From the NCBI RefSeq assembly GCF_037126465.1, contig NC_088201.1:195990403-196054402 (forward strand): 64,000 nucleotides of DNA, written 5' to 3'. Under the pieces are notes generated by a model. The model searched no databases. It was not told the DNA's origin and worked only from the letters and a program-made list of their open reading frames with translations. How positions within the stretch are numbered: the stretch's first letter is position 1; each line of letters begins with the position of its first letter. The position numbers and the translations under genes are program-made. This DNA comes from Ornithodoros turicata. Its lineage: Eukaryota; Arthropoda; Arachnida; Ixodida; Argasidae. Of this stretch, positions 13,183 to 64,000 are shown one piece after another.

Positions 13183-13330
13183 GTGACGGTTTCGCTATTT
13201 AATTTTGTTGCTGTGTCTGAGGAAATTGTTGTCTGTTGTTTAATTCCCTGCCTCGGGTTGCATCCTCGTCATCATGAAACAGCTTGTCTGCGCCCTCTCT
13301 CTGTTGTCGATTGTTCTACCAAACGCAGGA
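13183..13330 (+). repeat. PLE pseudo-LTR between tandem copies
   Basis: This is the same sequence as 10989-11115 (inverted) and 16526-16609. It sits between the GIY-YIG end of the truncated copy and the 5' reading frame of the next copy, the partially tandem pLTR arrangement known for Penelope-like elements. The next protein's first ATG (13274) lies inside it. Confidence 0.75.
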
Positions 13331-14132: not shown

Positions 14133-14962
14133 AGGTACTGTAAAGCAGTAGACAAGCATGATATGCCGGTGATGTGACTAGAGACTTTGTTGCTTCTAAA
14201 TACCATATGCGGAGCCATACGACCGACAACGCGCTATAAATGTTTTTAATTTGCCATGAAAGATGCGGCGTAGTGGAGCGGTGCGACGCCTGGTGTCAAA
14301 CAACCCCCAATACAGCGGGCAACACTGAAAATTGGTATTACACACTGTGACATCGGAACTTCGTTATTTTAGTAACCATATTATTAGTTTTCCTGTTTAC
14401 CTATGCATTCTGAAACCCCTGTTAACAGTTTAACCTGTTATCCCCTGTTTTTGCGAAGTAACCCAGTGCTGGCCGCTGTTCGATGGGGGCTCTCCCTACT
14501 TCTCTGCTGCGCCTGCGCGCTCCTTTTGTTCGCGGCTTCTTTCGAATGAACAAACTCTCTCTGTGAACCTCTGTGAACAAACAAGTCCCGACGCTGTCTG
14601 GCTTCTTGAACGTCTGACACATTTTTTTCAACGGCTCAGCATTTCATTTAAGTTCGCTTATCCGTTTATCCTCAGATGTGGATCGTTGTGTGGATTGCAG
14701 GGGCGGATTTTATGGTGGATTGTGGTGGAGTGTTATGTCGGGCCCAGTGTTATACGCATGCAATGTGGTTGCCGCCGTATGTGTCAGAAGTACGGATTCA
14801 TTTCGAATACCTAGTACAGTGTTGCCCGTAATCTTTAATTGTAATTTTCTAATTAACTGCACCGTCGATGGGAATGAAACTTGCACAGTTTTTGTCCTGT
14901 TGGCTTGGACTATCGAATAGCCACCCTAAATGACATTTGATCGGTGCTGCTTTACAATACCT
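14133..14962. mobile_element. TTAA-flanked MITE inside the PLE
   Basis: The ends AGGTACTGTAAAGCAG and CTGCTTTACAATACCT form a 16-bp inverted pair with one mismatch. They are flanked on both sides by TTAA (14129-14132 and 14963-14966). TTAA duplication points to piggyBac-like or Kolobok-like elements. Removing the 830 bp plus one TTAA restores the PLE reading frame. No transposase is present. Confidence 0.8.
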
Positions 14963-15720
14963 TTAAGCCCTTCACGGGTTTACTTAAATTGTCCAAATCA
15001 AGCATTGTCAGTGTCCTTTCAAAGAATCAACATCCTCTCAAGAATGCTGTCAATAATTGTTAGCCTTCATCCCTATCCGTCAAGTTTTTTTCTGAAAGAT
15101 CATAAGGCGGATATGCAGGTGCGTGTCGTCATCAGTTAGCGTGGCTCATGGGAAAGAATAGTCTCAAATTTTCTACAAAGGTCCCTGCGCTCGCTTCCTC
15201 TCTCAGAATCGATCTCCCTATGTAATGCACAGGAATTGCTACAATATCTAAACCCTTTTCACGGTTCAAAGGTTACGCTCTTTTCTCTGGACATCAAGGA
15301 CTTATACTATTCAATGAATGTACCGCTCCTACTCAAACGCGCCTCTGAGCTAATTGATGACCACATCACCGCTTTCCAAAACACTGTTGGTATGTCTGCT
15401 GCGAACTTTCTCAACATCTTGGAATGTTACCTGCAATCTACTGTTGTAACCTGGGAAGGAAAACCATATATTCAGGCCGAAGGTGTCTGTATTGGCGCTT
15501 CCGTTGCACGCATTCTAGCTGAAATCTACCTCAGTGTCCTTGATGGTGCTATTAGAAATTTGATAACCGAGACTTCCTGTGAACGATTGTGTATACGGCG
15601 GTATGTTGACGATATCATTGTCCTAACCAATCTCCCGTCCTTGACGGCCGAGCTTTTATCGAGTACGATCACGTCTAACTAACTTTTTCTATTGAACATC
15701 CCACAGAGCATAGACTGAAT
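14963..15720 (+). pseudogene. PLE reverse transcriptase core, direct copy
   Basis: Motifs run in order: FFLKDHKADMQVRVVIS near 15090-15137, SLDIKDLYYSMNVPLLLKR at 15285-15340, AEGVCIGASVARILAEIYL near 15478, and the catalytic YVDDIIVLTN at 15602-15631. Unlike the inverted copy, both catalytic aspartates are present. Stops at 15140 and 15680 and a frame change show it is inactive. Confidence 0.85.
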
Positions 15721-15735
15721 TTTTAGGACCTCACC

Positions 15736-16525
15736 TTGATTTTCGAAAGAGGCCTCTGTTGGTATTATGGAAAAAACAACGCAAAGTCACTTTTACCTCA
15801 ACGCAGCTCTCACTCCAAAATAGTCAAATTTGACGTAGTTTCCAACCTCTTCAATTCTGCCATTTCGAAAAGTTGTGTCCACCACGTTGCGTACAGTTTG
15901 CAGCAACAATGTTTCCGTTTGATACAGGCTGGGTACGAACAACACATTCTGGTCAAGCGTGCTCTAATTGAATTGCGCAAGATGATGAACCTCCCCAGTA
16001 ATCAATCATCAACAGAGCCTTCCTTCGACCATACTGTTTCTATTCCCTATTTCCACTCAGTGTCTCATAATATTTTGGCAGTAGCAAAAGACTATGGCAT
16101 AAGGGTAGTGTTCACTAATGCTTACAAGTTATCCAGGCTGACGCCTTTTTTATCCCAATCACAATGCTGTACTCTCTCGCACAAAAAAGCCCTTCGTACC
16201 TTGTTCCAGCGGAGTGTTTTACTGTATTCCTTTTAGTTGTGGTCTATGCTATGTGTTGCAAACAAAGAGGTACTTGAATCATAGGCTGCAAGAGCATAAC
16301 CTAAATACGGGGAAGAATCACATTTCCAGTGAACTCGTAGCCCACGTGCGTGAATGCAACAATTGCCAACCAATTTTCTCTGAAAACGAAGTTTTGTGTA
16401 AAGAAAAGAATTTGTGGCGGAGGTTACTCAGGGAATCTTTAGAGATAGCTGCACGTGGACATTGCGTCAGCAAGCCCTCCCTTGTTCCCTACCCCCTCTC
16501 CGGAGGTTGTCGTGTATATACGTGA
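15736..16525 (+). pseudogene. PLE RT C-terminus and GIY-YIG endonuclease, direct copy
   Basis: The frame 15736-16236 continues the RT thumb region (GYEQHILVKRALIELRKMM). A frame change near 16214 leads into the GIY-YIG domain (YCIPFSCGLCYVLQTKRYLN), where the usual YVGQ is YVLQ. The downstream pLTR starts at 16526. The protein is broken at least twice and would not be functional. Confidence 0.82.
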
Positions 16526-29005: not shown

Positions 29006-29011
29006 TCAAAA

Positions 29012-29686
29012 ACTGTAAAAAATGCTACAGCTCAAAATGTTGTAAAAAACGCGCTAGAGAGATCCTGTGAGCACAGAATGTTTGCGAGTTGTGTTGCGCA
29101 AATACATAGACTTCAGAGGGCTGGTTATCCGGAAGCAATTATCACTGACATATTGAGTCGTGTACTAACACGTTTAATAAATGGATCAAAACAAGAAAGG
29201 GCTAGGGAGAAGAATAAGTTCGCTGTCATTGAGTATGTGCATAAGGCATCGCATAGGTTAAAGAAATTATCGAAGAAGTTTGGGATAGATGTCGTGTTTA
29301 GAAAGGGATGGGGTCTTAATTCCCTACTAAATAGTGTAAATAAGGAACGGAACACCGGGTGTAAAGTTGAACATCAAACAAAGTACGTTAAATGTGCTAT
29401 AGGGGTAGTGTATAGTATTCCATTAAAATGTGGGAAGAAATATGTTGGACAGACAACACGGTGCTTAAACACAAGACTAAGAGAACATAACAAAAATAGT
29501 AAAAGAATGGAAACGACATTAGGTGGGCACCTCGCACAGTGTAATGGATGTGAACCCGACTTAAAGAGCACAAAAGTTTTGTATAAAAACAAGAAACAAG
29601 GGGCGTTACTATACTTGGAAGCTTTAACGATAAAGAAAATGGGGGAATTCGTGCATAAGTGTACCATCAGTAACCTTGTCTGGTAA
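29012..29686 (+). pseudogene. second PLE family: C-terminus with GIY-YIG endonuclease
   Basis: An open frame, in phase from about 29033 with the first ATG at 29078, contains the PLE RT C-terminal helices (LKKLSKKFGIDVVFRKGW) and a full GIY-YIG domain: VVYSIPLKCGKKYVGQTTRC, TRLREHNKN and LYLEALTIKKMG. It is clearly diverged from the PLE at 11-16.5 kb. The RT core is absent: homology starts abruptly near 29012, so the insertion is 5'-truncated. The endonuclease part itself shows no stop or frameshift, suggesting a fairly young insertion. A tail of about 200 bp follows. Confidence 0.8.
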
Positions 29687-44152: not shown

Positions 44153-44321
44153 CTGCACAGCAGAAAGGCTCATGACTGCTCTGAGTGAATGCACTTATGA
44201 GGCGCTGCTTTACTCCTTTTCTGTGTAGGACATTTGCAACCTGTCGTAAGATAATGTTTTCTAACTTGCAAAAGCATGCAAAGAAGGCATAGTTCATAAA
44301 AAGAAATGTACTTCCACTTAC

Positions 44322-47300
44322 CGCTGGCTTCCCCTGGGTCATTTGACTGGTGGTAGGATGTCGAAGGAATTGGAGAATCAGGTGCAGACCAAACAGTGGT
44401 TTCTGTGTGGCCTGTTAAAACAAGGTTTAGCCTAATGAATTATGGTGGCACTAACCAGTTCTCATTCTTTCTTGCTTAATGAACAAAATGCAATGGAATT
44501 ACAGTGTGAGCTCTGGAACCACCGTCTGTAGTTCATAAAAAGAAATGTACTCCCACTTAGCGCTGGCTTCCCCTGGGTCATTTGACTGGTGGTAGGATGT
44601 CGAAGGAATTGGAGAATCAGGTGCAGACCAAACAGTGGTTTCTGTGTGGCCTGTTAAAAAAAGGTTTAGCATAATGAATTATGGTGGCACTAACCAGTTC
44701 TCATTCTTTCTTGCTTAATGAACAAAATGCAATGGTATTACAGTGTGAGCTCTGGAACCACCGTCTGTAGTTCATGAAAAGAAATGTACTCCCACTTACC
44801 GTTGGCTTCCCCTGGGTCATTTGACTGGTGGTAGGATGTCGAAGGAATTGGAGAATCAGGTGCAGACCAAACAGTGGTTTCTGTGTGGCCTGTTAAAAAA
44901 AGGTTTAGCATAATGAATTATGGTGGTACTAACCAGTTCTCATTCTTTCTTGCTTAATGAACAAAATGCAATGGTATTACAGTGTGAGCTCTGGAACCAC
45001 CGTCTGTAGTTCATAAAAAGAAATGTACTCCCACTTACCGCTGGTTTCCCCTGGGTCATTTGACTGGTGGTAGGATGTCGAAGGAATTGGAGAATCAGGT
45101 GCAGACCAAACAGTGGTTTCTGTGTGGCCTGTTAAAAAAAGGTTTAGCATAATGAATTATGGTGGTACTAACCAGTTCTCATTCTTTCTTGCTTAATGAA
45201 CAAAATGCAATGGTATTACAGTGTGAGCTCTGGAACCACCGTCTGTAGTTCATAAAAAGAAATGTACTCCCACTTACCGCTGGCTTCCCCTGGGTCATTT
45301 GACTGGTGGTAGGATGTCGAAGGAATTGGAGAATCAGGTGCAGACCAAACAGTGGTTTCTGTGTGGCCTGTTAAAAAAAGGTTTAGCATAATGAATTATG
45401 GTGGCACTAACCAGTTCTCATTCTTTCTTGCTTAATGAACAAAATGCAATGGTATTACAGTGTGAGCTCTGGAACCACCGTCTGTAGTTCATAAAAAGAA
45501 ATGTACTCCCACTTAGCGCTGGCTTCCCCTGGGGCATTTGACTGGTGGTAGGATGTCGAAGGAATTGGAGAATCAGGTGCAGACCAAACAGTGGTTTCTG
45601 TGTGGCCTGTTAAAAAAAGGTTTAGCATAATGAATTATGGTGGCACTAACCAGTTCTCATTCTTTCTTGCTTAATGAACAAAATGCAGTGGTATTACAGT
45701 GTGAGCTCTGGAACCACCGTCTGTAGTTCATAAAAAGAAATGTACTCCCACTTAGCGCTGGCTTCCCCTGGGTCATTTGACTGGTGGTATGATGTCGAAG
45801 GAATTGGAGAATCAGGTGCAGACCAAACAGTGGTTTCTGTGTGGCCTGTTAAAAAAAAGGTTTAGCATAATGAATTATGGTGGCACTAACCAGTTCTCAT
45901 TCTTTCTTGCTTAATGAACAAAATGCAATGGTATTACAGTGTGAGCTCTGGAACCACCGTCTGTAGTTCATAAAAAGAAATGTACTCCCACTTAGCGCTG
46001 GCTTCCCCTGGGTCATTTGACTGGTGGTAGGATGTCGAAGGAATTGGAGAATCAGGTGCAGACCAAACAGTGGTTTCTGTGTGGCCTGTTAAAAAAAGGT
46101 TTAGCATAATGAATTATGGTGGTACTAACCAGTTCTCATTCTTTCTTGCTTAATGAACAAAATGCAATGGTATTACAGTGTGAGCTCTGGAACCACCGTC
46201 TGTAGTTCATAAAAAGAAATGTACTCCCACTTAGCGCTGGCTTCCCCTGGGTCATTTGACTGGTGGTAGGATGTCGAAGGAATTGGAGAATCAGGTGCAG
46301 ACCAAACAGTGGTTTCTGTGTGGCCTGTTAAAAAAAGGTTTAGCATAATGAATTATGGTGGCACTAACCAGTTCTCATTCTTTCTTGCTTAATGAACAAA
46401 ATGCAATGGTATTACAGTGTGAGCTCTGGAACCACCGTCTGTAGTTCATAAAAAGAAATGTACTCCCACTTAGCGCTGGCTTCCCCTGGGTCATTTGACT
46501 GGTGGTAGGATGTCGAAGGAATTGGAGAATCAGGTGCAGACCAAACAGTGGTTTCTGTGTGGCCTGTCAAAAAAAGGTTTAGCATAATGAATTATGGTGG
46601 CACTAACCAGTTCTCATTCTTTCTTGCTTAATGAACAAAATGCAATGGTATTACAGTGTGAGCTCTGGAACCACCGTCTGTAGTTCATAAAAAGAAATGT
46701 ACTCCCACTTAGCGCTGGCTTCCCCTGGGGCATTTGACTGGTGGTAGGATGTCGAAGGAATTGGAGAATCAGGTGCAGACCAAACAGTGGTTTCTGTGTG
46801 GCCTGTTAAAAAAAGGTTTAGCATAATGAATTATGGTGGCACTAACCAGTTCTCATTCTTTCTTGCTTAATGAACAAAATGCAATGGTATTACAGTGTGA
46901 GCTCTGGAACCACCGTCTGTAGTTCATGAAAAGAAATGTACTCCCACTTACCGTTGGCTTCCCCTGGGTCATTTGACTGGTGGTAGGATGTCGAAGGAAT
47001 TGGAGAATCAGGTGCAGACCAAACAGTGGTTTCTGTGTGGCCTGTTAAAAAAAGGTTTAGCATAATGAATTATGGTGGTACTAACCAGTTCTCATTCTTT
47101 CTTGCTTAATGAACAAAATGCAATGGTATTACAGTGTGAGCTCTGGAACCACCGTCTGTAGTTCATAAAAAGAAATGTACTCCCACTTAGCGCTGGCTTC
47201 CCCTGGGTCATTTGACTGGTGGTAGGATGTCGAAGGAATTGGAGAATCAGGTGCAGACCAAACAGTGGTTTCTGTGTGGCCTGTTAAAAAAAGGTTTAGC

Positions 47301-50300
47301 ATAATGAATTATGGTGGTACTAACCAGTTCTCATTCTTTCTTGCTTAATGAACAAAATGCAATGGTATTACAGTGTGAGCTCTGGAACCACCGTCTGTAG
47401 TTCATAAAAAGAAATGTACTCCCACTTAGCGCTGGCTTCCCCTGGGTCATTTGACTGGTGGTAGGATGTCGAAGGAATTGGAGAATCAGGTGCAGACCAA
47501 ACAGTGGTTTCTGTGTGGCCTGTTAAAAAAAGGTTTAGCATAATGAATTATGGTGGCACTAACCAGTTCTCATTCTTTCTTGCTTAATGAACAAAATGCA
47601 ATGGTATTACAGTGTGAGCTCTGGAACCACCGTCTGTAGTTCATAAAAAGAAATGTACTCCCACTTAGCGCTGGCTTCCCCTGGGGCATTTGACTGGTGG
47701 TAGGATGTCGAAGGAATTGGAGAATCAGGTGCAGACCAAACAGTGGTTTCTGTGTGGCCTGTCAAAAAAAGGTTTAGCATAATGAATTATGGTGGCACTA
47801 ACCAGTTCTCATTCTTTCTTGCTTAATGAACAAAATGCAATGGTATTACAGTGTGAGCTCTGGAACCACCGTCTGTAGTTCATAAAAAGAAATGTACTCC
47901 CACTTAGCGCTGGCTTCCCCTGGGGCATTTGACTGGTGGTAGGATGTCGAAGGAATTGGAGAATCAGGTGCAGACCAAACAGTGGTTTCTGTGTGGCCTG
48001 TTAAAAAAAGGTTTAGCATAATGAATTATGGTGGCACTAACCAGTTCTCATTCTTTCTTGCTTAATGAACAAAATGCAATGGTATTACAGTGTGAGCTCT
48101 GGAACCACCGTCTGTAGTTCATGAAAAGAAATGTACTCCCACTTACCGTTGGCTTCCCCTGGGTCATTTGACTGGTGGTAGGATGTCGAAGGAATTGGAG
48201 AATCAGGTGCAGACCAAACAGTGGTTTCTGTGTGGCCTGTTAAAAAAAGGTTTAGCATAATGAATTATGGTGGTACTAACCAGTTCTCATTCTTTCTTGC
48301 TTAATGAACAAAATGCAATGGTATTACAGTGTGAGCTCTGGAACCACCGTCTGTAGTTCATAAAAAGAAATGTACTCCCACTTACCGCTGGCTTCCCCTG
48401 GGTCATTTGACTGGTGGTAGGATGTCGAAGGAATTGGAGAATCAGGTGCAGACCAAACAGTGGTTTCTGTGTGGCCTGTTAAAAAAAGGTTTAGCATAAT
48501 GAATTATGGTGGTACTAACCAGTTCTCATTCTTTCTTGCTTAATGAACAAAATTCAATGGTATTACAGTGTGAGCTCTGGAACCACCGTCTGTAGTTCAT
48601 AAAAAGAAATGTACTCCCACTTACCGCTGGCTTCCCCTGGGTCATTTGACTGGTGGTAGGATGTCGAAGGAATTGGAGAATCAGGTGCAGACCAAACAGT
48701 GGTTTCTGTGTGGCCTGTTAAAAAAAGGTTTAGCATAATGAATTATGGTGGCACTAACCAGTTCTCATTCTTTCTTGCTTAATGAACAAAATGCAATGGT
48801 ATTACAGTGTGAGCTCTGGAACCACCGTCTGTAGTTCATAAAAAGAAATGTACTCCCACTTAGCGCTGGCTTCCCCTGGGGCATTTGACTGGTGGTAGGA
48901 TGTCGAAGGAATTGGAGAATCAGGTGCAGACCAAACAGTGGTTTCTGTGTGGCCTGTTAAAAAAAGGTTTAGCATAATGAATTATGGTGGCACTAACCAG
49001 TTCTCATTCTTTCTTGCTTAATGAACAAAATGCAGTGGTATTACAGTGTGAGCTCTGGAACCACCGTCTGTAGTTCATAAAAAGAAATGTACTCCCACTT
49101 AGCGCTGGCTTCCCCTGGGTCATTTGACTGGTGGTATGATGTCGAAGGAATTGGAGAATCAGGTGCAGACCAAACAGTGGTTTCTGTGTGGCCTGTTAAA
49201 AAAAGGTTTAGCATAATGAATTATGGTGGCACTAACCAGTTCTCATTCTTTCTTGCTTAATGAACAAAATGCAATGGTATTACAGTGTGAGCTCTGGAAC
49301 CACCGTCTGTAGTTCATAAAAAGAAATGTACTCCCACTTAGCGCTGGCTTCCCCTGGGTCATTTGACTGGTGGTAGGATGTCGAAGGAATTGGAGAATCA
49401 GGTGCAGACCAAACAGTGGTTTCTGTGTGGCCTGTTAAAAAAAGGTTTAGCATAATGAATTATGGTGGTACTAACCAGTTCTCATTCTTTCTTGCTTAAT
49501 GAACAAAATGCAATGGTATTACAGTGTGAGCTCTGGAACCACCGTCTGTAGTTCATAAAAAGAAATGTACTCCCACTTACCGCTGGCTTCCCCTGGGTCA
49601 TTTGACTGGTGGTAGGATGTCGAAGGAATTGGAGAATCAGGTGCAGACCAAACAGTGGTTTCTGTGTGGCCTGTTAAAAAAAGGTTTAGCATAATGAATT
49701 ATGGTGGCACTAACCAGTTCTCATTCTTTCTTGCTTAATGAACAAAATGCAATGGTATTACAGTGTGAGCTCTGGAACCACCGTCTGTAGTTCATAAAAA
49801 GAAATGTACTCCCACTTAGCGCTGGCTTCCCCTGGGGCATTTGACTGGTGGTAGGATGTCGAAGGAATTGGAGAATCAGGTGCAGACCAAACAGTGGTTT
49901 CTGTGTGGCCTGTTAAAAAAAGGTTTAGCATAATGAATTATGGTGGCACTAACCAGTTCTCATTCTTTCTTGCTTAATGAACAAAATGCAGTGGTATTAC
50001 AGTGTGAGCTCTGGAACCACCGTCTGTAGTTCATAAAAAGAAATGTACTCCCACTTAGCGCTGGCTTCCCCTGGGTCATTTGACTGGTGGTAGGATGTCG
50101 AAGGAATTGGAGAATCAGGTGCAGACCAAACAGTGGTTTCTGTGTGGCCTGTTAAAAAAAGGTTTAGCATAATGAATTATGGTGGCACTAACCAGTTCTC
50201 ATTCTTTCTTGCTTAATGAACAAAATGCAATGGTATTACAGTGTGAGCTCTGGAACCACCGTCTGTAGTTCATAAAAAGAAATGTACTCCCACTTAGCGC

Positions 50301-53300
50301 TGGCTTCCCCTGGGTCATTTGACTGGTGGTAGGATGTCGAAGGAATTGGAGAATCAGGTGCAGACCAAACAGTGGTTTCTGTGTGGCCTGTCAAAAAAAG
50401 GTTTAGCATAATGAATTATGGTGGCACTAACCAGTTCTCATTCTTTCTTGCTTAATGAACAAAATGCAATGGTATTACAGTGTGAGCTCTGGAACCACCG
50501 TCTGTCGTTCATAAAAAGAAATGTACTCCCACTTAGCGCTGGCTTCCCCTGGGGCATTTGACTGGTGGTAGGATGTCGAAGGAATTGGAGAATCAGGTGC
50601 AGACCAAACAGTGGTTTCTGTGTGGCCTGTTAAAAAAAGGTTTAGCATAATGAATTATGGTGGCACTAACCAGTTCTCATTCTTTCTTGCTTAATGAACA
50701 AAATGCAGTGGTATTACAGTGTGAGCTCTGGAACCACCGTCTGTAGTTCATAAAAAGAAATGTACTCCCACTTAGCGCTGGCTTCCCCTGGGTCATTTGA
50801 CTGGTGGTAGGATGTCGAAGGAATTGGAGAATCAGGTGCAGACCAAACAGTGGTTTCTGTGTGGCCTGTTAAAAAAAGGTTTAGCATAATGAATTATGGT
50901 GGCACTAACCAGTTCTCATTCTTTCTTGCTTAATGAACAAAATGCAATGGTATTACAGTGTGAGCTCTGGAACCACCGTCTGTAGTTCATAAAAAGAAAT
51001 GTACTCCCACTTAGCGCTGGCTTCCCCTGGGTCATTTGACTGGTGGTAGGATGTCGAAGGAATTGGAGAATCAGGTGCAGACCAAACAGTGGTTTCTGTG
51101 TGGCCTGTTAAAAAAAGGTTTAGCATAATGAATTATGGTGGCACTAACCAGTTCTCATTCTTTCTTGCTTAATGAACAAAATGCAATGGTATTACAGTGT
51201 GAGCTCTGGAACCACCGTCTGTAGTTCATAAAAAGAAATGTACTCCCACTTAGCGCTGGCTTCCCCTGGGTCATTTGACTGGTGGTATGATGTCGAAGGA
51301 ATTGGAGAATCAGGTGCAGACCAAACAGTGGTTTCTGTGTGGCCTGTTAAAAAAAGGTTTAGCATAATGAATTATGGTGGCACTAACCAGTTCTCATTCT
51401 TTCTTGCTTAATGAACAAAATGCAATGGTATTACAGTGTGAGCTCTGGAACCACCGTCTGTAGTTCATAAAAAGAAATGTACTCCCACTTAGCGCTGGCT
51501 TCCCCTGGGTCATTTGACTGGTGGTAGGATGTCGAAGGAATTGGAGAATCAGGTGCAGACCAAACAGTGGTTTCTGTGTGGCCTGTTAAAAAAAAGGTTT
51601 AGCATAATGAATTATGGTGGTACTAACCAGTTCTCATTCTTTCTTGCTTAATGAACAAAATGCAATGGTATTACAGTGTGAGCTCTGGAACCACCGTCTG
51701 TAGTTCATAAAAAGAAATGTACTCCCACTTGGCGCTGGCTTCCCCTGGGTCATTTGACTGGTGGTAGGATGTCGAAGGAATTGGAGAATCAGGTGCAGAC
51801 CAAACAGTGGTTTCTGTGTGGCCTGTTAATAAAGGTTTAGCATAATGAATTATGGTGGCACTAACCAGTTCTCATTCTTTCTTGCTTAATGAACAAAATG
51901 CAATGGTATTACAGTGTGAGCTCTGGAACCACCGTCTGTAGTTCATAAAAAGAAATGTACTCCCACTTAGCGCTGGCTTCCCCTGGGTCATTTGACTGGT
52001 GGTAGGATGTCGAAGGAATTGGAGAATCAGGTGCAGACCAAACAGTGGTTTCTGTGTGGCCTGTTAAAAAAAGGTTTAGCATAATGAATTATGGTGGCAC
52101 TAACCAGTTCTCATTCTTTCTTGCTTAATGAAAAAAATGCAATGGTATTACAGTGTGAGCTCTGGAACCACCGTCCGTAGTTCATAAAAAGAAATGTACT
52201 CCCACTTAGCGCTGGCTTCCCCTGGGTCATTTGACTGGTGGTAGGATGCCGAAGGAATTGGAGAATCAGGTGCAGACCAAACAGTGGTTTCTGTGTGGCC
52301 TGTTAAAAAAAGGTTTAGCATAATGAATTATGGTGGCACTAACCAGTTCTCATTCTTTCTTGCCTAATGAAAAAAATGCAATGGTATTACAGTGTGAGCT
52401 CTGGCACCACCGTCTGTAGTTCATAAAAAGAAATGTACTTCCACTCACCGCTGGCTTCCCCTGGGTCATTTGACTGGTGGTAGGATGCCGAAGGAATTGG
52501 AGAATCAGGTGCAGACCAAACAGTGGTTTCTGTGTGGCCTGTTACAAAAAGGTTTAGCATAATGAATTATGGTGGCACTAACCAGTTCTCATTCTTTCTT
52601 GCTTAATGAACAAAATGCAATGGTATTACACTGTGAGCTCTGGCACCACCGTCTGTAGTTCATAAAAAGAAATGTACTTCCACTCACCGCTGGCTTCCCC
52701 TGGGTCATTTGACTGGTGGGAGGATGTCGAAGGAATTGGAGAATCAGGTGCAGACCAAACAGTGGTTTCTGTGTGGCCTGTTAAAAAAAGGTTTAGCATA
52801 ATGAATTATGATGGCACTAACCAGTTCTCATTCTTTCTTGCTTAATGAACAAAATGCAATGGTATTACAGTGTGAGCTCTGGCACCACCGTCTGTAGTTC
52901 ATAAAAAGAAATGTACTTCCACTCACCGCTGGCTTCCCCTGGGTCATTTGACTGGTGGGAGGATGTCGAAGGAATTGGAGAATCAGGTGCAGACCAAACA
53001 GTGGTTTCTGTGTGGCCTGTTAAAAAAAGGTTTAGCATAATGAATTATGGTGGCACTAACCAGTTCTCATTCTTTCTTGCTTAATGAACAAAATGCAATG
53101 GTATTACAGTGTGAGCTCTGGCACCACCGTCTGTAGTTCATAAAAAGAAATGTACTTCCACTCACCGCTGGCTTCCCCTGGGTCATTTGACTGGTGGGAG
53201 GATGTCGAAGGAATTGGAGAATCAGGTGCAGACCAAACAGTGGTTTCTGTGTGGCCTGTTACAAAAAGGTTTAGCATAATGAATTATGGTGGCACTAACC

Positions 53301-54838
53301 AGTTCTCATTCTTTCTTGCTTAATGAACAAAATGCAATGGTATTACAGTGTGAGCTCTGGCACCACCGTCTGTAGTTCATAAAAAGAAATGTACTTCCAC
53401 TCACCGCTGGCTTCCCCTGGGTCATTTGACTGGTGGGAGGATGTCGAAGGAATTGGAGAATCAGGTGCAGACCAAACAGTGGTTTCTGTGTGGCCTGTTA
53501 AAAAAAGGTTTAGCATAATGAATTATGATGGCACTAACCAGTTCTCATTCTTTCTTGCTTAATGAACAAAATGCAATGGTATTACAGTGTGAGCTCTGGC
53601 ACCACCGTCTGTAGTTCATAAAAAGAAATGTACTTCCACTCACCGCTGGCTTCCCCTGGGTCATTTGACTGGTGGGAGGATGTCGAAGGAATTGGAGAAT
53701 CAGGTGCAGACCAAACAGTGGTTTCTGTGTGGCGTGTTAAAAAAAGGTTTAGCATAATGAATTATGGTGGCACTAACCAGTTCTCATTCTTTCTTGCTTA
53801 ATGAACAAAATGCAATGGTATTACAGTGTGAGCTCTGGCACCACCGTCTGTAGTTCATAAAAAGAAATGTACTTCCACTCACCGCTGGCTTCCCCTGGGT
53901 CATTTGACTGGTGGGAGGATGTCGAAGGAATTGGAGAATCAGGTGCAGACCAAACAGTGGTTTCTGTGTGGCCTGTTACAAAAAGGTTTAGCATAATGAA
54001 TTATGGTGGCACTAACCAGTTCTCATTCTTTCTTGCTTAATGAACAAAATGCAATGGTATTACAGTGTGAGCTCTGGCACCACCGTCTGTAGTTCATAAA
54101 AAGAAATGTACTTCCACTCACCGCTGGCTTCCCCTGGGTCATTTGACTGGTGGGAGGATGTCGAAGGAATTGGAGAATCAGGTGCAGACCAAACAGTGGT
54201 TTCTGTGTGGCCTGTTAAAAAAAGGTTTAGCATAATGAATTATGATGGCACTAACCAGTTCTCATTCTTTCTTGCTTAATGAACAAAATGCAATGGTATT
54301 ACAGTGTGAGCTCTGGCACCACCGTCTGTAGTTCATAAAAAGAAATGTACTTCCACTCACCGCTGGCTTCCCCTGGGTCATTTGACTGGTGGGAGGATGT
54401 CGAAGGAATTGGAGAATCAGGTGCAGACCAAACAGTGGTTTCTGTGTGGCCTGTTACAAAAAGGTTTAGCATAATGAATTATGGTGGCACTAACCAGTTC
54501 TCATTCTTTCTTGCTTAATGAACAAAATGCAATGGTATTACAGTGTGAGCTCTGGAACCACCGTCTGTAGTTCATAAAAAGAAATGTACTCCCACTTAGC
54601 GCTGGCTTCCCCTGGGTCATTTGACTGGTGGTAGGGTGTCGAAGGAATTGGAGAATCAGGTGCAGACCAAACAGTGGTTTCTGTGTGGCCTGTTAAAAAA
54701 AGGTTTAGCATAATGAATTATGATGGCACTAACCAGTTCTCATTCTTTCTTGCTTAATGAACAAAACGCAATGGTATTACAGTGTGAGCTCTGGCACCAC
54801 TGTCTGTAGTCCATAAAAAGAAATGACTTCCACTTACC
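44322..54838 (-). CDS. array of 90-nt phase-1 exons coding a 30-residue repeat
   Basis: The lowest exon is 44322-44411; the others repeat every 239 bp. Ninety nucleotides with 1-1 phase keep the frame through any number of units. In phase 1 the peptide is G-HTETTVWSAPDSP, then IPSTSYHQSNDPGEAS, rich in Ser, Thr and Pro, resembling linker or mucin-like repeats. The diverged unit at 54838-54928 keeps SAP.SP.PST.Y in this phase while another phase has an early stop, which supports phase 1 as the original frame. Canonical donors occur in 19 of 45 units, including nine in a row near 52.4-54.4 kb with GTGAGT. 26 units have a broken donor, almost all GT to CT. One unit near 53.73 kb has a broken acceptor (AC). 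Expression is not shown. Confidence 0.6.
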
Positions 54839-54928
54839 GCTGACTTCCCCTGGGTCATTTTACTGGAGGATAGGGTGTTGATGGAGTTGGTGAGTGAGGT
54901 GCAGACACTTGAACATGTTCTACTCGGC
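54838..54928 (-). pseudogene. diverged edge unit of the exon array
   Basis: Aligned with the 90-nt exon it has 91 nt, a GG instead of AG at the acceptor, and a one-base insertion that brings TGA into phase 1. The donor GTAAGT is intact. The conserved SAP.SP.PST.Y pattern before the frameshift suggests an old functional exon that later decayed at the edge of the array. Confidence 0.55.
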
Positions 54929-55490: not shown

Positions 55491-55987
55491 CAGTGATGGC
55501 CAGTACTTAACTACATGTAGTTAAACTACCTGATTGTAGTTAAAAAGTAGTTTTCAACTACTTGCAGAAATGTAGTGGGAAACTACTAGTGAAACTACTA
55601 TGCAGAGTAGTTAACTACTGTAGTTAGGTTACTGCAGGTGCCAACTACTTTCGATTTTGCCACAAGCTTTACGGCACGATTGTGCTTCCAACTTTTAACC
55701 ATAATGGAGGTGCAAAGCAATTGTGCAGTGCATGTGTACTAAATCTTCCCTTTATCGCTGCTTGTGATTCATATTTAGGTGTCCAAGAACACTACAGAAT
55801 GGGATTGGTGTTGATGGACAACGTTAAGTACTTATATAGATGTAGTTAAAATACACTGCAGTAGTTAAACAAGTAGTTTTAACTGCCTCCCCTGAAAAGT
55901 AGTTGAACTACTAGTTAAACTGGTCCATCGCGACGTAGTTAGTAGTTAGAGTTAAACTACTGTATACGTAGTTAGTGGCCATCACTG
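55491..55987. mobile_element. hAT-type MITE with 8-bp duplication
   Basis: The ends CAGTGATGGCCA and TGGCCATCACTG are perfect 12-bp inverted repeats. The element is flanked by CTGACAAG (55483-55490 and 55988-55995), exactly 8 bp. Both halves contain dense AGTAGTTAACTAC-like palindromic words. At 497 bp with no coding region it is a non-autonomous hAT. It lies in the presumed intron between THAP exon 2 and the exon array. Confidence 0.88.
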
Positions 55988-56027: not shown

Positions 56028-56052
56028 CCGCTATCATTGAAGGGCAACGCTG
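56028..56052 (-). CDS. distal end of THAP gene exon 2
   Basis: On the minus strand, directly after the end of the foldback element, the sequence GCGTTGCCCTTCAATGATAG leads to GCGG followed by the donor GTGAGT (56027-56022). If the foldback element is removed without residual target duplication, the exon-2 frame continues as RCPSMIA and ends in phase 1. That is the phase needed to enter the 90-nt array exons. Joining across the element is inference; a target duplication not divisible by three would alter the phase. Confidence 0.45.
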
Positions 56053-56180
56053 CAGGGTAGTTTCATTTTAAATCGAACAACATGTGAAAGTCGTATTTTT
56101 TAATTCGCAGAGAAACAATATATGTTAGATGACAGCTCAAACGGCGCAAATCGCGCCACGTGCGACGCTCGTGCGTGGAG

Positions 56181-56394
56181 TGTTGGGCTGTATCTTTTGC
56201 GTCTAGCGCAAATCCTTTTAGTTTCGGATTAGTTATCTTTTAATAATAAAAGGCCCGAGCAGCGCGATGTGTGTGATGACAAAGTGGTGTACCACATTCT
56301 CTCGCTGACTGGACCGAACTGGATGTCTGACTGATGCTCTCTCGGTAGTGTTGAAGCCACACGCACAGATTGTCCACGGCATAAAACCTCAACA
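56181..56394 (+). repeat. Copia 5' LTR
   Basis: Begins TGTTGGGCTGTATCTTTTGC and ends ATAAAACCTCAACA. ATAAAA near the end may serve as part of the polyadenylation context, and TAATAATAAAAGG at 56240-56252 is another candidate. It pairs with 57801-58014 at one mismatch. Confidence 0.93.
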
Positions 56395-56396
56395 AA

Positions 56397-56410
56397 GGTT
56401 ATGGGCCCAT
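56397..56410 (+). other. Copia primer-binding site for initiator-tRNA half
   Basis: GGTTATGGGCCCAT starts two bases after the LTR. It complements the anticodon-arm region of initiator methionine tRNA (ATGGGCCCATAACC), not the CCA 3' end. Use of a half-tRNA-iMet primer is established for Drosophila copia. Confidence 0.75.
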
Positions 56411-56456
56411 ACACTGGCCCAAGACTGTTGCCGTAGGGACATCGCAGGTTGAAGGC

Positions 56457-57482
56457 GTGGATTATTTTGAGACTTTTTCACCCGTTGTCAAGTTGACAAG
56501 TTTGCGAATCCTCCTTGCATTAGGCCTCGAGGAAGGAATGGCGATGCGCCAACTTGATGTGAAGACGGCGTACCTTTACGGAAGACTCGAGGAAACTGTC
56601 TACGTGGAGCCACCTTTGGGCTATCCCGGAGCTGCCAATAAAGTATGTCTACTAAAGAAGGCACTTTACGGCCTCAAGCAATCCGGGAGGACATGGTACC
56701 TAACGCTTGATGAAATCCTCAGGAACTTGGGTTACAGGAGACTTGAAGCGGATAGATGTGTTTACCTATTGATCCAAGGACATCAGAAGGTTATTCTAAG
56801 CGTATATGTGGACGACATGCTTATGATGGCCACTTCATCAGCCCTTCTAAAAACAGCCATCAAGGACCTAGGGCAAAAGGTCGAACTGAAAGACTTGGGA
56901 GAGCCAACCTATATTCTCGGAATTGAGGTACTACACGACAAACAGAACAGGACCCTAACGATCAGTCAAAGAAAATACATTGACGAGATCTTAAATCGCT
57001 TCAAGATGGAGGATTGCAAACCGATAAAAACACCAATGGAAGTTGGGCAGAGGAATGACACGACGACTGCGACTGCTGCAGAAAAGAATCCGAATGTACC
57101 ATATCAGTCCCTGATAGGAAATTTAATGTATTTGGTGCAAGGGACACGTCCAGATCTTGCATTTGTCGCTCACTACCTGAGCCAGTTCAACTTAAATCAC
57201 ACGCTAAGTCACTGGAGGATGGCGAAAAGAGTGCTCCGCTACCTCAAAGGAACCCGCAACGTTGGAATAACGTACAGCGCATGCAAGGAGCCCATAACAG
57301 GTTACACCGATGAAAAGCTGGAACGAGTGCGGCACTGGGAGATCGAGGAGTGGTTACGTATTCACAATGTCTCAGGGTGCGATCAGTTGGAGATCGACGA
57401 GACAACAACTAATAGCTTTGTCAACATGCGAAGCGGAATACATTGCGCTTACGGAAGGCTTAAAAGAAGGAAAGTGGATTAA
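56457..57482 (+). pseudogene. pol: Copia reverse transcriptase, truncated and frameshifted
   Basis: The frame begins inside the Copia RT domain: YFETFSPVVKLTSLRILLAL, MRQLDVKTAYLYGRLEETVY (motif A aspartate), ALYGLKQSGRTWY, and the catalytic box LSVYVDDMLMMA near 56800. The connection region follows (LGEPTYILGIEV, SLIGNLMYLVQGTRPDLAF, RVLRYLKGTRNVGITY). After GYTDE at about 57315 the frame shifts, and the last 50 codons are not Copia-like. The RNase H continuation is in the +1-shifted frame starting at 57310. Upstream domains were deleted. Confidence 0.92.
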
Positions 57483-57768
57483 AACGTTCATGGCAGAACT
57501 TGGATTCAATAACTATGGAACTCAGACCTTAGAAGTCCGTTGTGACAACCAGTCTGCCATCAGAATAACTGAAAACCCGATGTATCATCAACGAACAAAG
57601 CACATCGATCTCAAATACCTATTCGCCAGAAATGAAGTGGAAAACAAACGGTTCAGGATCACATTCTTACGCACTGAGGACATGATCGCCGACGCTTTGA
57701 CGAAACCAGTGTCGAACGCAAAGAACACCGTGTGCGGCAAAGGCTTCGGCTTCACAAACTTTCCTTGA
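57310..57768 (+). pseudogene. pol: Copia RNase H, out of frame with RT
   Basis: Frame with SGYVFTMSQGAISWRSTRQQ, CEAEYIALTEGLKEGKWI, NQSAIRITENPMYHQRTKHI and IADALTKPV, the conserved blocks of Copia RNase H (active-site E in CEAEY, D in the LRCDNQSA-type block, D in IADALTK). One frameshift near 57310 separates it from RT. A polypurine tract (GCAGGGGGGCA, 57788-57798) follows just before the 3' LTR. Confidence 0.92.
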
Positions 57769-57800
57769 TGTGTAGGATTTGCTGGACGCAGGGGGGCATT

Positions 57801-58014
57801 TGTTGGGCTGTATCTTTTGCGTCTAGCGCAAATCCTTTTAGTTTCGGATTAGTTATCTTTTAATAATAAAAGGCCCGAGCAGCGCGAGGTGTGTGATGAC
57901 AAAGTGGTGTACCACATTCTCTCGCTGACTGGACCGAACTGGATGTCTGACTGATGCTCTCTCGGTAGTGTTGAAGCCACACGCACAGATTGTCCACGGC
58001 ATAAAACCTCAACA
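57801..58014 (+). repeat. Copia 3' LTR
   Basis: Same length as the 5' LTR with a single substitution (GCGCGAGGTG instead of GCGCGATGTG). It is followed by the target duplication TGGAG at 58015-58019. Confidence 0.93.
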
Positions 58015-58136
58015 TGGAGTAGTTTCCGCGTGGGAGAGGAGGAAAGTCTGAGGCTGCTTGAGCGCGCTTTCTTCTGGACCGACTTTGACGGGATCTAGCA
58101 CGGCTGATTTTATGCCTAGGAACTGGATGTTTTTTT

Positions 58137-58385
58137 GTGATTATAGGCTACACCATAGACACTGTCGACAGCTACGCACAGAACTCTGAGGGCCACAGAT
58201 TTTCTGTTAAAAAATGCCAAACTTGGCGTATACGTTCAAAAAGGCCAAACTTTGTTACCAATTTGCTTCATGACGAACGTCTGAGGACATCGAGCTTAGC
58301 GTCATTCGATAGGACGTTGAAAGAGCTCTCGTGCTGTATAAAGTTCATTTTTCTGAGTTCAGTGCTTTCCGTGTTATTAGGTTGA
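58137..58385 (+). repeat. paired 82-codon frame in left foldback arm
   Basis: The frame (IIGYTIDTVDSYAQNSEGH, then RFSVKKCQTWR) is mirrored with the same length and few replacements on the minus strand at 60631-60879 in the other arm. It has no known domain. Conservation is explained by the arms being copies, so it is reported as part of the inverted repeat, not as a gene. Confidence 0.4.
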
Positions 58386-59082
58386 GAATCGCACATGGTA
58401 GGCGAAAATTACCAATGTTGCATCTCAGTTTTCTCAAAAATGCCATCTTGGATTTCCTTGATCATTTTTGAAAAGGTGGCGTCATGCCTCTACTTTAGAC
58501 GCCAAGTGACACAATATTTTATTTTTACTTGAGAGACGCGCAGCGATTTTTTTGGTCAGACATGGTCCGCGAGACTGCAGCCTAGCGCGCCCCATCCACG
58601 AGGACGCGACCTTCAACCTCTTCTTTGCTACAGGTCTCCCGCTGACGGAGTAATCAATGACCACTCTGCGTGAGCTTGTTGTAGTATACCAAGAGCATTA
58701 CTTTACGTTTACCCAATGGTCTCCCAGTTCCGTCAGGCTCATTCAAACCGTGGGAGAGTACATGAGTTGCCTGTGCGCCCTTGACGAGAAGCCCCAGTCC
58801 GCGAACATACCGACAAAGTAGTGAGAAGAAACGAAGCGCTTCGTAAAGATCTTTATCCAGTGGCAACATCGTAGCTTTTGTTTCAGGTTGCCGCCAGTCC
58901 CCCAGGAAGTGTGAAAGTCACATCCTTTTCATTGGTAAAAGAACGTTGTGAAAGTTTCGAAAAACGTAAAATGTGCCAATTGCGAGACCCCTGCAGATCA
59001 TGGCTGCCACCATTGGATTAGCATCATCCAAAAGCTTTACAGGACCTTTCACATGATATAAAGTGACTGGGTTCAAGCGCAT

Positions 59083-59958
59083 CTTTCGTCCGCCTAGTAT
59101 CGCAAAACCACGAGTGGTACGCGAAAATTTTGCATGTTCGATCTTAATTATTTCTAAAACCCCAGAATATTTTTCACGATTTATTCCACAGGGGCAGAAT
59201 TATACCTGTACTTTGCCCTGCTGGTAAGGTAGGTATCTTTTCTCTTTTTGATTGAGACTCTGGGCTACTTTTCCGTGGAGCGATTTTTCCACACAAAGGC
59301 GCTCCTCGTATGTCTGCGAGCTTGCTTTGCTTCTTAACCTTTGGTTTGTAATTTATTGCCCAGACGTTGCATTCTGTACTTATTTTGCACTTATGGTACG
59401 TATGTTTATTTTCTCCTTTGGAATCTCCTTTGGGCAATACTTTCGTGGGCTCCTTGAACTTGCTATTACGCACTTTCATGGGAGTCGCACGCCCCACGTG
59501 TGCGTATGCACGTGCGCATAGTCACTATTCTCCCGCACGGTGCTTGAGGCAATGCACATACGCACGCTATGAGGCTGTCGTGCGAGTTAATATTAGGAAG
59601 GCAGAACTACGGCCACAGGGGACAGAAAGTTACAACACGTGAGAATACAAATTTGTGGCCGCCTCTTAGCTTGGGCGCAATGAGTGATAGTTCCGAAGCT
59701 GTGCATCCTACCTTTAATTAGTTTTATGCCCCGTAGCGTTATTTCGGAACCACGACGAGTACTATATACAAAGCCCGTAAGACCCCTGTGATGACAGTAT
59801 GTTGCTGCTCTCAAGTATAACACGTTCGCCCTCCACGAGCTGTGTCAGTGCCACCGTGGGAATCAAAATTTCCGACAGAACGACGCACAACTAAAATCCC
59901 TCGTTTCCGGTAGCCGTAGGTACCCTCGGTGTGGTCTTCAGTAATCCTTTTAGCATCC
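59083..59958. other. spacer between foldback arms, no gene recognised
   Basis: Several frames of 76-107 codons on both strands, none with a transposase or other domain. The GCGCGTG/CACGTGCG-rich stretch near 59490-59570 has many small palindromic words. Confidence 0.4.
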
Positions 59959-61125
59959 ATGCGCTTGAACCCAGTCACTTTATATCATGTGAAAGGTCAT
60001 ATCTAAACCTATCAGATGATGCTAATCCAATGGTTCCATCCATCATCTGCAGGGGTCTCGCAATGGGCACATATTACGTTTTGCGAAACTTCCACAACGT
60101 TCTTTTACCAATGAAAAGGATGTGACTTCCACACTGCCTGGGGGACTGGTGGCAACCTGAAACAAAAGCTACGATGTTACCACTGGATAAAGATCTTTAC
60201 GAAGCGCTTCGTTTCTGTTCGAGGACTGGGGCTTCTCGTCAAGGGCGCACAGGCAACTCATGTACTCTCCCACGGTTTGAATGAGCCTGGCGGAACTGGG
60301 AGACCATTGGGTAAACGTAAAGTGATGCTCTGGGGACACTACAACAAGCTCACGCAGTGTGGTCATTCATTTCTCCGTCAGCGGGAGACCTGTAGCAAAG
60401 AAGAGGTTGAAGGTCGCGTGCTCGTAGATGGGCCCTACCTCGTGGACCCTGCATGACAAAAAAAAAAAATCGCTGCGCGTCTCTCGGGTAAAAATAAAAG
60501 ATTGTCTCACTTGGCGTCTAAAGTAGAGGCATGACGCCACCTTTTCAAAAATAATCAAGGAAATCGAAGATGGCATTTTTGAGAAAACTGAGATGCAACA
60601 TTGTCAATTTTCGCCTACCATGTGCGATTCTCAAACTAATAACACAGAAAGCAGTGGACTGACAAAAATGAACTTTATACAGCACGAAAAGTCTTTCAAC
60701 GTCCTATCGAATGACGCTAAGCTCGATGTCCTCAGACGTTCGTCATGAAGCAAATTGGTAACAAAGTTTGGCCTTTTTGAACGTTTACGCCAAGTTTGGC
60801 ATTTTTTAACAGAAAATCTGTGGCCCTCAGAGTTCTGTGCGTAGCTGTCGACAGTGTCTATGGTGTAGCCTATAATCACAAAAAAACCTCCAGTTCCTAG
60901 GCATAAAATCAGCGGTGCTAGATCCCGTCAAAGTCGGTCCAGAAGAAAGCGCGCTCAAGCAGCCTCAGACTTTCCTCCTCTTCCTCGCGGAAACTACCCC
61001 ACGCACGAGCGTCGCACGTGGTGCGATTTGCTTCGTTTGAGCTATCCTCTAATATATATTTTTTTCTGGGCGAATTAAAAAATACGACTTTCATCCGTTG
61101 TTCGATTTAAAATGAAACTACCCTG

Positions 61126-61297
61126 CACTGACTGGAGAGGCACAGTGGGGACAGCCGTCCTTTTCAGACGTGTCCTCTGCCTGTTTGTGAAAGCGTCGGA
61201 TGTGAAATGCGCCTCGCACAGCTTCTGATGTTTTAGCTGATCAGGTGGAAGAGTGGCATATTCTGGTTGACCAGCGTGCTCGATCCACGCAGACTTC
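61126..61297 (-). CDS. THAP gene exon 2 (proximal part)
   Basis: The minus-strand frame reads AWIEHAGQPEYATLPPDQLK, then KLCEAHFTSDAFTNRQRTRL and KRTAVPT: the C-terminal half of the THAP zinc finger with C-x2-H and the closing AVPT motif. A strong acceptor (TTCATTGTGTTACAG) ends at 61298. Entering there gives the wrong phase from exon 1; the next AG four bases later (exon from 61293, TCT) keeps the frame. At 61125 the exon runs into the foldback element, whose terminus adds about 15 foreign codons and a TAA (61075). The intact exon would continue at 56052. Confidence 0.7.
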
Positions 61298-61450: not shown

Positions 61451-61573
61451 CTCTCGTCTCCTGGGAATCCAAAAAAATGAAGGGTTGCAGTTCAGGCGTG
61501 AATTCTTGCAACCGCTGACTCTGCATTTGATATAATTGATTCGTCTTGGTGGATCATCTTCCGGTGCTGCCAT
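61451..61573 (-). CDS. THAP gene exon 1
   Basis: Exactly 41 codons from ATG (61573-61571) to a donor GAG|GTAGAG. The protein MAAPEDDPPRRINYIKCRV continues SGCKNSRLNCNPSFFWIPRR RE (read in two parts) and contains the N-terminal half of the THAP domain: C-x4-C and the SFF.IP block that corresponds to FFxFP. THAP domains (C2CH zinc fingers of about 90 residues) bind DNA and occur in transcription regulators and P-element-type transposases; they are common in ticks. Splitting the domain by an intron after the FP motif is usual for THAP genes. In-frame upstream codons exist, but the ATG in a typical short-leader position is preferred. Confidence 0.75.
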
Positions 61574-63183
61574 TGCCTCACGGCTCCTCACACAAGTGGC
61601 ATGGTGAACATGGTAGTGTGACAGCCAGACATCGATAATAAACCGAACAAGTACGGAAGCACTTAAATAGATTCTGGTCGACATTGAGAATCCTTGGGTG
61701 TTGCCTTGTGCTCCTTTCGTGCGCATCACTTCAGTCCACTTCCTTTTGCCCCAAGACCAATTCCCACGAGAACGGATACTCAAACCTTTTCTTGAGACTT
61801 CTTCAGAGTCGGCGCCGCTTTTACTTCGACAGTCAAGGTCGACTTGTATCTCACGTAATCCCTGGTCACTCTGGACGCTCTCACGGAGTACGCCCCCGTA
61901 GCCGCCATAGCACTCCGTAACGGCCAGAGGAGTCAAATCGAAACCGCCAAGCCGATGCACGCAGGTGCGCGCGAAAATAATCCGCGTTGGACCAATCGGA
62001 GCGCGTGTACAGTCTCGGCCAATGGGCTTGCAACATGGTGTATGGGCGCAGTGGTACATATTCTACAGCCGCATCCGCGGGTACCTGATGACATAGAAAT
62101 CTTAAGGAGTATGCTAGAAGGAAACCTCCGAAACTCGGACGTACGGGCGAGGGGAGCGCCATATTCAATCAGCTACTGTTGCCGCGGCGCATGCAAACAA
62201 AGGAATCCAGTAAGCATACAGCAAACATAACGCCAAAAATGTTTTTGGAACAGTAACACACCGCCAGAAACCGTGACACCGTAAGATATATGAAAACACA
62301 TACACACACACATAGACGAAGAAACAGACACGCCACGGACGCCACATGGGGATGCCGTCTCCGCCGCTGCCTCAACCAGCCTTGACTACAAGCCTGGATA
62401 GGGGCGGACACTGACAAAATATGTAGCCGACGGAAGCAGAGGAGCAACCGAGCAAGTGTTGCAACAGTTTTTGGAACTGTGGCTGCTTTCACGGGCTGGA
62501 AATACACGACGTTTCCTCGGCTGATTCAATATGGCTGCCTCCGAGCGCATAGATTGAGAGAGGGAAGAGCCCCGTTCAAGTGCTTTGCTCTCCTCCGATC
62601 CTCCTCCCCAGCTTTCCTTCCAGCCTCTCTCCTTAAGATTTATATGCCTGAGGAGGACTGACACTACTACACCGCCCACTGCCGCTTCGATACCCGTATC
62701 TCACTCCTGGCCTCCAGCTCGTTCTCCCACCCGGCGATTTAGCATTCAGCTGCTTAGTTCGTCAGTTCCCCGACTCTCGATTCCTTCGAGCACTCTCGGT
62801 ACGAACGAAGCACCCGCACCTCCATGAGTCTTTACTCTCACCACCTTACGAACTGCCCTCAACAGTATGCCGTACACCCTCTCCGCCGCCTCCGCCCTGT
62901 CGAGCATTCGAGTAAACATGGCAACAACGTCCACAGATGGCGCGACGGGCTCGCGGCCAACAAACAGCCGCTGTCGCAGCTCCTTTTATGCGTGTTCGTG
63001 CATGTTACGGCCATTGTGGATGTGATGTTAACAGGGTGAGCTGGTGAACTGTTGAACTATATTTGCCTGATCGAAGAATCGACACACACAGTTCAGTCCG
63101 GTGAGTCGTTCACTATGATCGAATCATTCGCGATTGACACACCAGTAACCAGTGCATCAACTTGGAAACGTAAAGGCAGCATG
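61574..63183. other. upstream region of the THAP gene, no further gene recognised
   Basis: The in-frame extension upstream of the ATG (to 62059, minus) lacks THAP-like sequence. GC-rich DNA around 61940-62170 could hold the promoter, but no clear core element was identified. An ACACATACACACACAC-type tract lies near 62298-62312. Confidence 0.35.
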
Positions 63184-63861
63184 TACAGGTCCCGACAAAA
63201 GTTTACGGAACACGCGAGCGGTGTATTTTCTCCTCGGTGCGACACCCTAGCGGCAAGCGGAAGCTGGCGAAATCAGGCCAGTTCACTGCCTCAGAGGGGT
63301 GGACGACTGCACTCTTAGCGACACACAGCGGTAATTTCGGTATGATTTCTGTTGTATGTGCCCGCAAAGTGAGCTGGATTTTACTGTTGTGCTCGCCAGC
63401 AACACGTGATTCAACGATTGTTGAGACAGGGAGCTCGCCGCTATCATCGCGTTAACAAGGATGAATCATAGTGGCAACACTTTACCGTGTATTGTTTTTA
63501 TTGGAAAGCCAGGATATGTAGAGAAGACAAAGAAAGGTATCTGGTGAAGAGTTGCCTTATTATGGACGACGCGTGACGAGCTGATAAACACATGACGTTG
63601 ACATTGATAATTGATTGATAAACAAGTGACGTGAGTCACGAGTTGTTGACGAGCACAACAGTTTAATCCAACTCACTCCACGGGCACATACAACAGTAAT
63701 CATACCGAAACTACCGCTGTGTGTCGCTAAGAGCGCAGTCGTCCACCCCTCTGAGGCAGTGAACTGGCCTGATTTCGCCAGCTTCCGCTTGCCGCCAGGG
63801 TGTCGTACCGAGAAGAAAATACACCGCTCGCGTATTCCGTAAACTTTTGTCGGGACCTGTA
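63184..63861. mobile_element. Tc1/mariner-like MITE with long inverted ends
   Basis: Ends TACAGGTCCCGACAAAAGTT and AACTTTTGTCGGGACCTGTA. The arms are about 240 bp (63184-63425 and 63625-63861), sharing CAGTTCACTGCCTCAGAGG and GGGCACATACAACAG-type blocks. TA at each end fits a TA target. A spacer of about 200 bp lies between the arms. There is no transposase; open frames in the arms are mirror images. Confidence 0.8.
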
Positions 63862-64000
63862 CATCGCAGAGAGAAGCAAGACACAGCAAACATTGAGCAG
63901 ACCAAAGCCTAGGACGTCCAGGAGTAAACGGCGCCCAAACCTGTTCTCGATGCCTTGATAGAATATTGCTCCCTGGTGTGACATGAGAAATACGAACCCA

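Follow-up and report, generated by a model that had tools for sequence, protein, structure and literature searches.

An array of exon-like 239-bp units, probably exon-born and satellite-like, behind a damaged-looking THAP gene in Ornithodoros turicata

Genes that carry many similar exons in tandem have been described in several organisms, and the account given here draws on excerpts of the papers cited. In the LRR genes of Tetrahymena, exons of exactly 90 bp stand in tandem with introns of equal length, forming units of about 347 bp in T. thermophila, where a gene can have from 1 to 51 of them; the phase is 2 throughout, growth is ascribed to unequal crossing-over, and the exons have RNA-Seq support (PMC6564038). 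In the SmPoMuc mucin genes of Schistosoma mansoni, the 27-bp exon 2 and its flanking introns are found in tandem up to about 20 times, in units of about 1 kb with introns more than 94% alike, and give rise to a repeated peptide; transcripts with many repeats have been sequenced (PMC2576457). The kringle IV-2 (KIV-2) repeat of human LPA is an intron-containing coding tandem repeat with units of 5.6 kb, present in 1-40 copies per allele (PMC11462820). Chicken BG genes have runs of about 27-37 small, similar 21-nt exons, expressed as a heptad-repeat tail (PMC5938342), and human genes in segmental duplications are altered by internal tandem repeats in or at exons, which may be kept or spliced out (PMC2812944). 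An earlier, sequence-only reading of the DNA described below held that exon arrays of such size and homogeneity are unusual; going by these excerpts, large uniform ones are in fact known (Tetrahymena LRR, SmPoMuc, LPA KIV-2). Among the literature matches listed there was nothing on point for tick THAP, domesticated THAP, the Rhipicephalus THAP domain or exon-derived satellites, which is not a claim of absence from print.

The DNA analysed here is a stretch of 64 kb (the window). Tandem Repeats Finder identified one large tandem array in it, with a period of 239, 44.4 copies and 98% matches. Counted on the minus strand, there are 44 units with a recognisable exon start, all of them 238-240 nt long, and one diverged unit at the 5' edge, giving 45 in all (numbered u00 to u44 from the 5' edge; Table 1). 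The array, its position and the figure of some 45 units of 239 bp had all been given in the sequence-only reading, and are borne out. Each unit is made up of a 90-nt segment with phase 1 on both sides and about 149 nt of intron-like sequence. It thus has the composition to be expected of a coding array, namely one exon-length open segment plus its intron, with equal phase on the two sides. Read in phase 1, the segment gives GHTETTVWSAPDSPIPSTSYHQSNDPGEAS, and it is free of stops in 44/44 units, as had been claimed. It is preceded by a T-rich tract and AACAG or GACAG in 43 of the 44 units, so that the tract and AG ascribed earlier to each unit hold with the exception of u05, which has AC for AG, and of u00, which has GG. 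The array is equally what would be expected of a satellite, being a long head-to-tail run of near-identical units, with identical units at several offsets.

Table 1. Positions of the array, its units, the THAP exons and the inserted element in the window.
Feature	Position	Strand	Basis
Tandem array, 239-bp units	44290..54906	-	Tandem Repeats Finder and unit listing
u00 exon (edge unit): 5' part from a different though related exon, 3' part of array type	54838..54928	-	Sequence
u01 exon-like segment, first full unit: 90 nt, phase 1-1, donor CT without GT	54600..54689	-	
Block u02-u10: nine units in a row, donor GTGAG in each; u05 acceptor AC for AG	52449..54450	-	
Units u11-u43: 25/33 without donor GT	44561..52299	-	
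u44 exon-like segment, last unit: donor GTAAG	44322..44411	-	
THAP exon 1: ATG to donor GTAGAG	61451..61573	-	
THAP exon 2, 5' part from the first AG; frame of exon 1 continued only from the second AG, 61293	61128..61297	-	
THAP exon 2, 3' remnant behind the inserted element; ends GCGG/GTGAGT, phase 1	56028..56050	-	
Element with long inverted arms in THAP exon 2; TGCA at both ends	56051..61127	.	Repeat comparison

The repeat itself is beyond chance. The exon-like cassette on its own is weak evidence and proves little: under lenient settings, chosen after the unit had been seen, the GT-form unit was put through 2000 dinucleotide shuffles, and 215 of these contained at least one comparable cassette of acceptor, frame and donor on either strand. 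Nor is phase 1 the sole open frame of the 90-nt consensus segment, a second one being free of stops too. With the cassette so frequent in shuffles, the case for an exon rests on the surroundings of the array.

What is missing from most units is a pair of working splice signals. The donors in the 44 units are GCTAAG (25), GCCAAG (1), GGTGAG (9) and GGTAAG (9, three of them standing after AAC), which means that the donor GT is present in 18 units and absent, with C for G at +1, in 26. One more unit, u05 (exon start 53733), has a GT donor and has lost its acceptor AG. Both sites are found in 17/44 units (u02-u04, u06-u10, u22, u26-u28, u33, u40-u42 and u44), and in 27/44 one of the two, the donor GT or the acceptor AG, is missing. 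The sequence-only reading had described intact-looking units with a donor in each, and a protein carrying dozens of identical 30-residue repeats; the first does not agree with the donors found, and the second loses its support.

The two kinds of unit are unevenly placed. The block u02-u10 is an unbroken run of GT donors with both sites in 8/9, and within u11-u43 the donor GT is confined to u22, u26, u27, u28, u33, u40, u41 and u42. At the 5' edge u00 and u01 are both defective, u00 having GG for the acceptor AG and an exon of 91 nt that is out of frame, with the donor GT kept. The sequence GGTAAGTGGAAG is found in both edge units of the array, each of which borders single-copy sequence. Given that the units next to single-copy sequence carry GT, the GT form is taken to be the older, loss of the donor to be derived, and the broken form to have multiplied inside the array. 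Two substitutes for the missing donor were considered and rejected. A GC donor one base earlier in the CT units (C/GCTAAG) agrees poorly with the donor consensus on inspection by eye, and the next GT on the 3' side of the exon (TAA/GTGGGA, at +4) would shift the frame. If splicing used the acceptor of a CT unit and no donor followed, the reading frame would run into a stop 20 codons beyond the exon.

On the same strand, with its exons about 6.2-6.6 kb 5' of the array, there is a THAP gene. With exons 1 and 2 joined at the second AG and translated, a Pfam scan of the resulting single peptide identified the THAP domain PF05485 (E 1.9e-11, 45 bits against a cut-off of 23.9). The peptide contains C-x4-C, C-x2-H and AVPT, which we take to be the zinc ligands and the AVPT box of the THAP domain motif. 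The join between the exons is out of frame at the first AG and in frame at an AG four bases on. When the flanks of the element that lies in exon 2 are joined, the exon continues for 27 nt to GCGG/GTGAGT and ends in phase 1, with u00 following 1.1 kb behind this donor. A match in phase would arise by luck one time in three; taken with the shared strand and the position, it makes the array exons read as a natural extension of the THAP gene. Read on into the inserted element, exon 2 meets a stop in frame 15 codons past the insertion, unless this could be avoided by GTAGTT near the end of the element, a candidate donor. The host gene is thus not open from its start to the array, on account of the element in exon 2 and the frame break at the first AG. 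It looks damaged, and is not to be called dead on sequence alone.

The 3' end of the gene was sought among phase-1 candidates with an acceptor (20 to 44.29 kb, at least 40 residues) and among frames of at least 45 residues from about 15 to 44.4 kb. No 3' exon of the THAP gene was recognised among the downstream minus-strand frames listed, between about 15 and 44.4 kb; when ten of the downstream frames were compared with Pfam, eight had no match to E 0.1 and two had weak matches below the cut-off. A search for protein relatives, using THAP plus four repeats and twelve repeats as queries, gave none at cut-offs of 0.001 and 0.01, and 10 and 12 candidates that share words. We take the protein database used to be mostly microbial, and a null result there is no evidence against animal relatives.

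The element in exon 2 is 5.1 kb long. Its arms pair 56051-56181 with 60996-61127, with further arms between 58015-59082 and 59959-61001. Nested inside it is a copia-like element, which has identical 214-nt direct repeats (56181-56394 and 57801-58014) flanking an RVT_2 domain, has TG...CA termini, and is bordered by TGGAG on each side. It is worth adding that the window contains several other repeats and fragments of mobile-element type. A second inverted repeat lies 5' of the THAP exons at 63181-63864, with two 233-nt arms that are 93% complementary and 218 nt between them, and the stretch between the THAP remnant and the array (55500-55970) is rich in words like TAGTTAACTAC. Further away, at 6443-8368, a fragment of RVT_1 reverse transcriptase stands beside a Mos1-type transposase HTH fragment (HTH_48), in frames that overlap or adjoin. 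In the region 11116-16525 there are RVT_1 fragments at 11830-12330 (below cut-off) and 15140-15679, and at 29006-29686 there is a GIY-YIG frame (29006-29683); these RVT_1 fragments and the GIY-YIG frame may be Penelope-like.

The edges of the array provide clues as to its origin. Compared with the consensus, u00 differs in 34 columns, of which 8 are in the intron and 26 in the exon, 25 of these within the first 69 columns. This clustering indicates that the 5' part of u00 comes from a different, related exon and that the 3' part is of the array type. At the other edge, unit-like intron runs on for 32 nt after u44, to 44290, and is followed by single-copy sequence. The arrangement suggests that both edges fit a single unequal crossing-over between two neighbouring related exons within their shared 3' halves. 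Over codons 9-20, a well-aligned part chosen after the data had been seen, u00 and the array exon differ at 2, 1 and 5 sites in codon positions 1, 2 and 3 (dN 0.13, dS 0.76), which suggests that these exons were once under protein constraint. Over codons 1-20 the differences by codon position are 7, 7 and 8 (dN 0.46, dS 0.63), and on this longer comparison the two exons appear to have been under little constraint, which counts against an exon-born array, so that the argument from past constraint depends on the well-aligned part. Within the window, blastn and tblastn turned up no convincing older relative of the exon apart from u00, for which tblastn gave E 0.004 (0.34 for the next best). An exon origin of the array segment is supported by its phase, which is 1 at either end and agrees with that at the end of THAP exon 2, and by the related exon of u00, whose differences from the array exon over 12 well-aligned codons fall mainly at third positions.

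Among the 43 full units, 32 columns are variable, 7/90 in the exon against 25/149 in the intron (Fisher p 0.052). The lower variability of the exon could mean constraint, and to that extent counts against an exon-born satellite. The changes within the exon comprise 6 replacements and 1 silent change, set against 194:66 for all possible single changes, and hence give no indication that the protein is constrained in the array as it now stands. Splice-critical columns, a set picked after the data had been seen, are variable in 4/9 cases against 27/230 for the others (p 0.018). Stop codons are found in 0/44 array exons, which says little, given that just 10/270 single changes would create one. Units differ from one another at a mean of 4.5 positions per pair. 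By raw counts, identical pairs number 5 at an offset of 3, 3 at 4, 6 at 5, 4 at 9 and 3 at 14, with 0 to 2 at each remaining offset up to 24, and in the block u02-u10 the order recurs every three units. This suggests that the array grew partly in steps of several units. Linked variants occur in mixed order along the units, with identity at several offsets, and do not form one block exactly repeated.

We conclude, with a probability of roughly two in three, that this is an exon-born, satellite-like array in a damaged THAP gene, which is now mostly skipped or spliced out. On this proposal, the ancestral THAP gene would have contained two or more neighbouring 90-nt exons, related in sequence and of phase 1, that encoded a Ser/Thr/Pro-rich linker. 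Unequal crossing-over between their similar 3' halves, as judged from the chimeric edges, would have produced the 239-bp unit of exon plus intron, and unequal exchange would then have multiplied it, partly in the several-unit blocks that the identity pattern displays. The donor variant without the G of GT was multiplied with the rest, and now stands in 26/44 units. Units without a donor would be skipped, and most of the array would leave the transcript as intron or skipped exon. With the gene itself looking damaged, any present contribution of the array to a protein is probably small or nil. The alternative put forward in the sequence-only reading, in which one exon gave rise to a satellite that splicing removes as junk, fits better than a coding array, with the amendment that the seed would be a crossover between two related exons. 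The identification with an exon could be mistaken, the array being an ordinary satellite that resembles an exon by chance, as both the shuffle control and the second open frame would permit. We consider this highly unlikely in view of the GTAAGT/GTGAGT donors at both edges, the phase and strand shared with THAP exon 2, and the mainly third-position differences of the 5'-edge exon over 12 codons. Arrays this uniform are hard to assemble, and the copy number might accordingly be a product of assembly, a shorter array having been looped by the assembler. The mixed order of linked variants and the several identity offsets, in place of one exact repeated block, make this scarcely credible.

A working coding array is the other reading to be weighed, and we regard it as unlikely. 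Some or all of the 17 two-site units, mainly those of u02-u10, which lie nearest the THAP exons, would be included by splicing and give the THAP protein a linker of Ser/Thr/Pro-rich repeats, and the donor-less units would be skipped harmlessly, each exon being 90 nt with phase 1 on both sides. It draws on the survival of AG and GT in those units, on the uniform GTGAG donors of the block and AG in 8/9 of its units, on the phase of THAP exon 2, and on the lower variability of exon columns; excerpts on Tetrahymena and Schistosoma also describe near-identical or uniform exon arrays in use (PMC6564038, PMC2576457). Against it, the broken donor is the majority state, the element interrupts THAP exon 2 and exon 1 joins in frame only through the second AG, the two units at the 5' edge are defective, and no 3' exons were recognised among the downstream frames listed. 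A more particular proposal, which we think quite improbable, is a self-tuning exon array, in which the splice-competent minority would contribute to a THAP protein and the donor-less copies would serve as silent spacers. If this were true, unequal exchange between the two forms would alter the length of the linker without ever breaking the frame.

Taken as exon-born and satellite-like, the array seems to show an exon caught in the course of becoming satellite DNA. Units that keep their splice sites adjoin units that have lost one, and linked markers run through both kinds, which offers a test of whether the growth of such arrays is driven by selection on the protein or needs nothing beyond recombination. 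That the broken form is in the majority favours recombination and drift. The coding arrays of Tetrahymena and Schistosoma raise the same question. There is also a warning for annotation, in that gene predictors may call many exons at this array.

The present array is laid out like the known exon arrays, and probably, by analogy, grew in a similar way. As far as the excerpts go, it shares with the Tetrahymena LRR genes the tandem 90-nt exons, the equal introns and the single intron phase; unlike those phase-2, leucine-rich and RNA-Seq-supported repeats, it has phase 1, a Ser/Thr/Pro-rich linker and a splice site missing in 27/44 units. It resembles SmPoMuc in that an exon and its intron are repeated within one gene, whereas the excerpt on SmPoMuc describes a shorter exon, larger units and sequenced transcripts, and the present array is known from genomic sequence. 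LPA KIV-2 is likewise a tandem repeat that includes introns, with a copy number that varies widely, but from the excerpted description its units are far larger and encode a working protein domain. The chicken BG genes similarly have many small, similar exons in a row and a repeat in the protein, and differ, in the text drawn on, in that their exons are 21 nt long and expressed. The internal repeats of human genes, as excerpted, are unlike the array in being few and shorter, and in lying mostly inside an exon or at a single exon-intron boundary. With splice sites missing in most of its units, the present array is not counted among the coding arrays, and what is unusual here is that the broken state is that of the majority.
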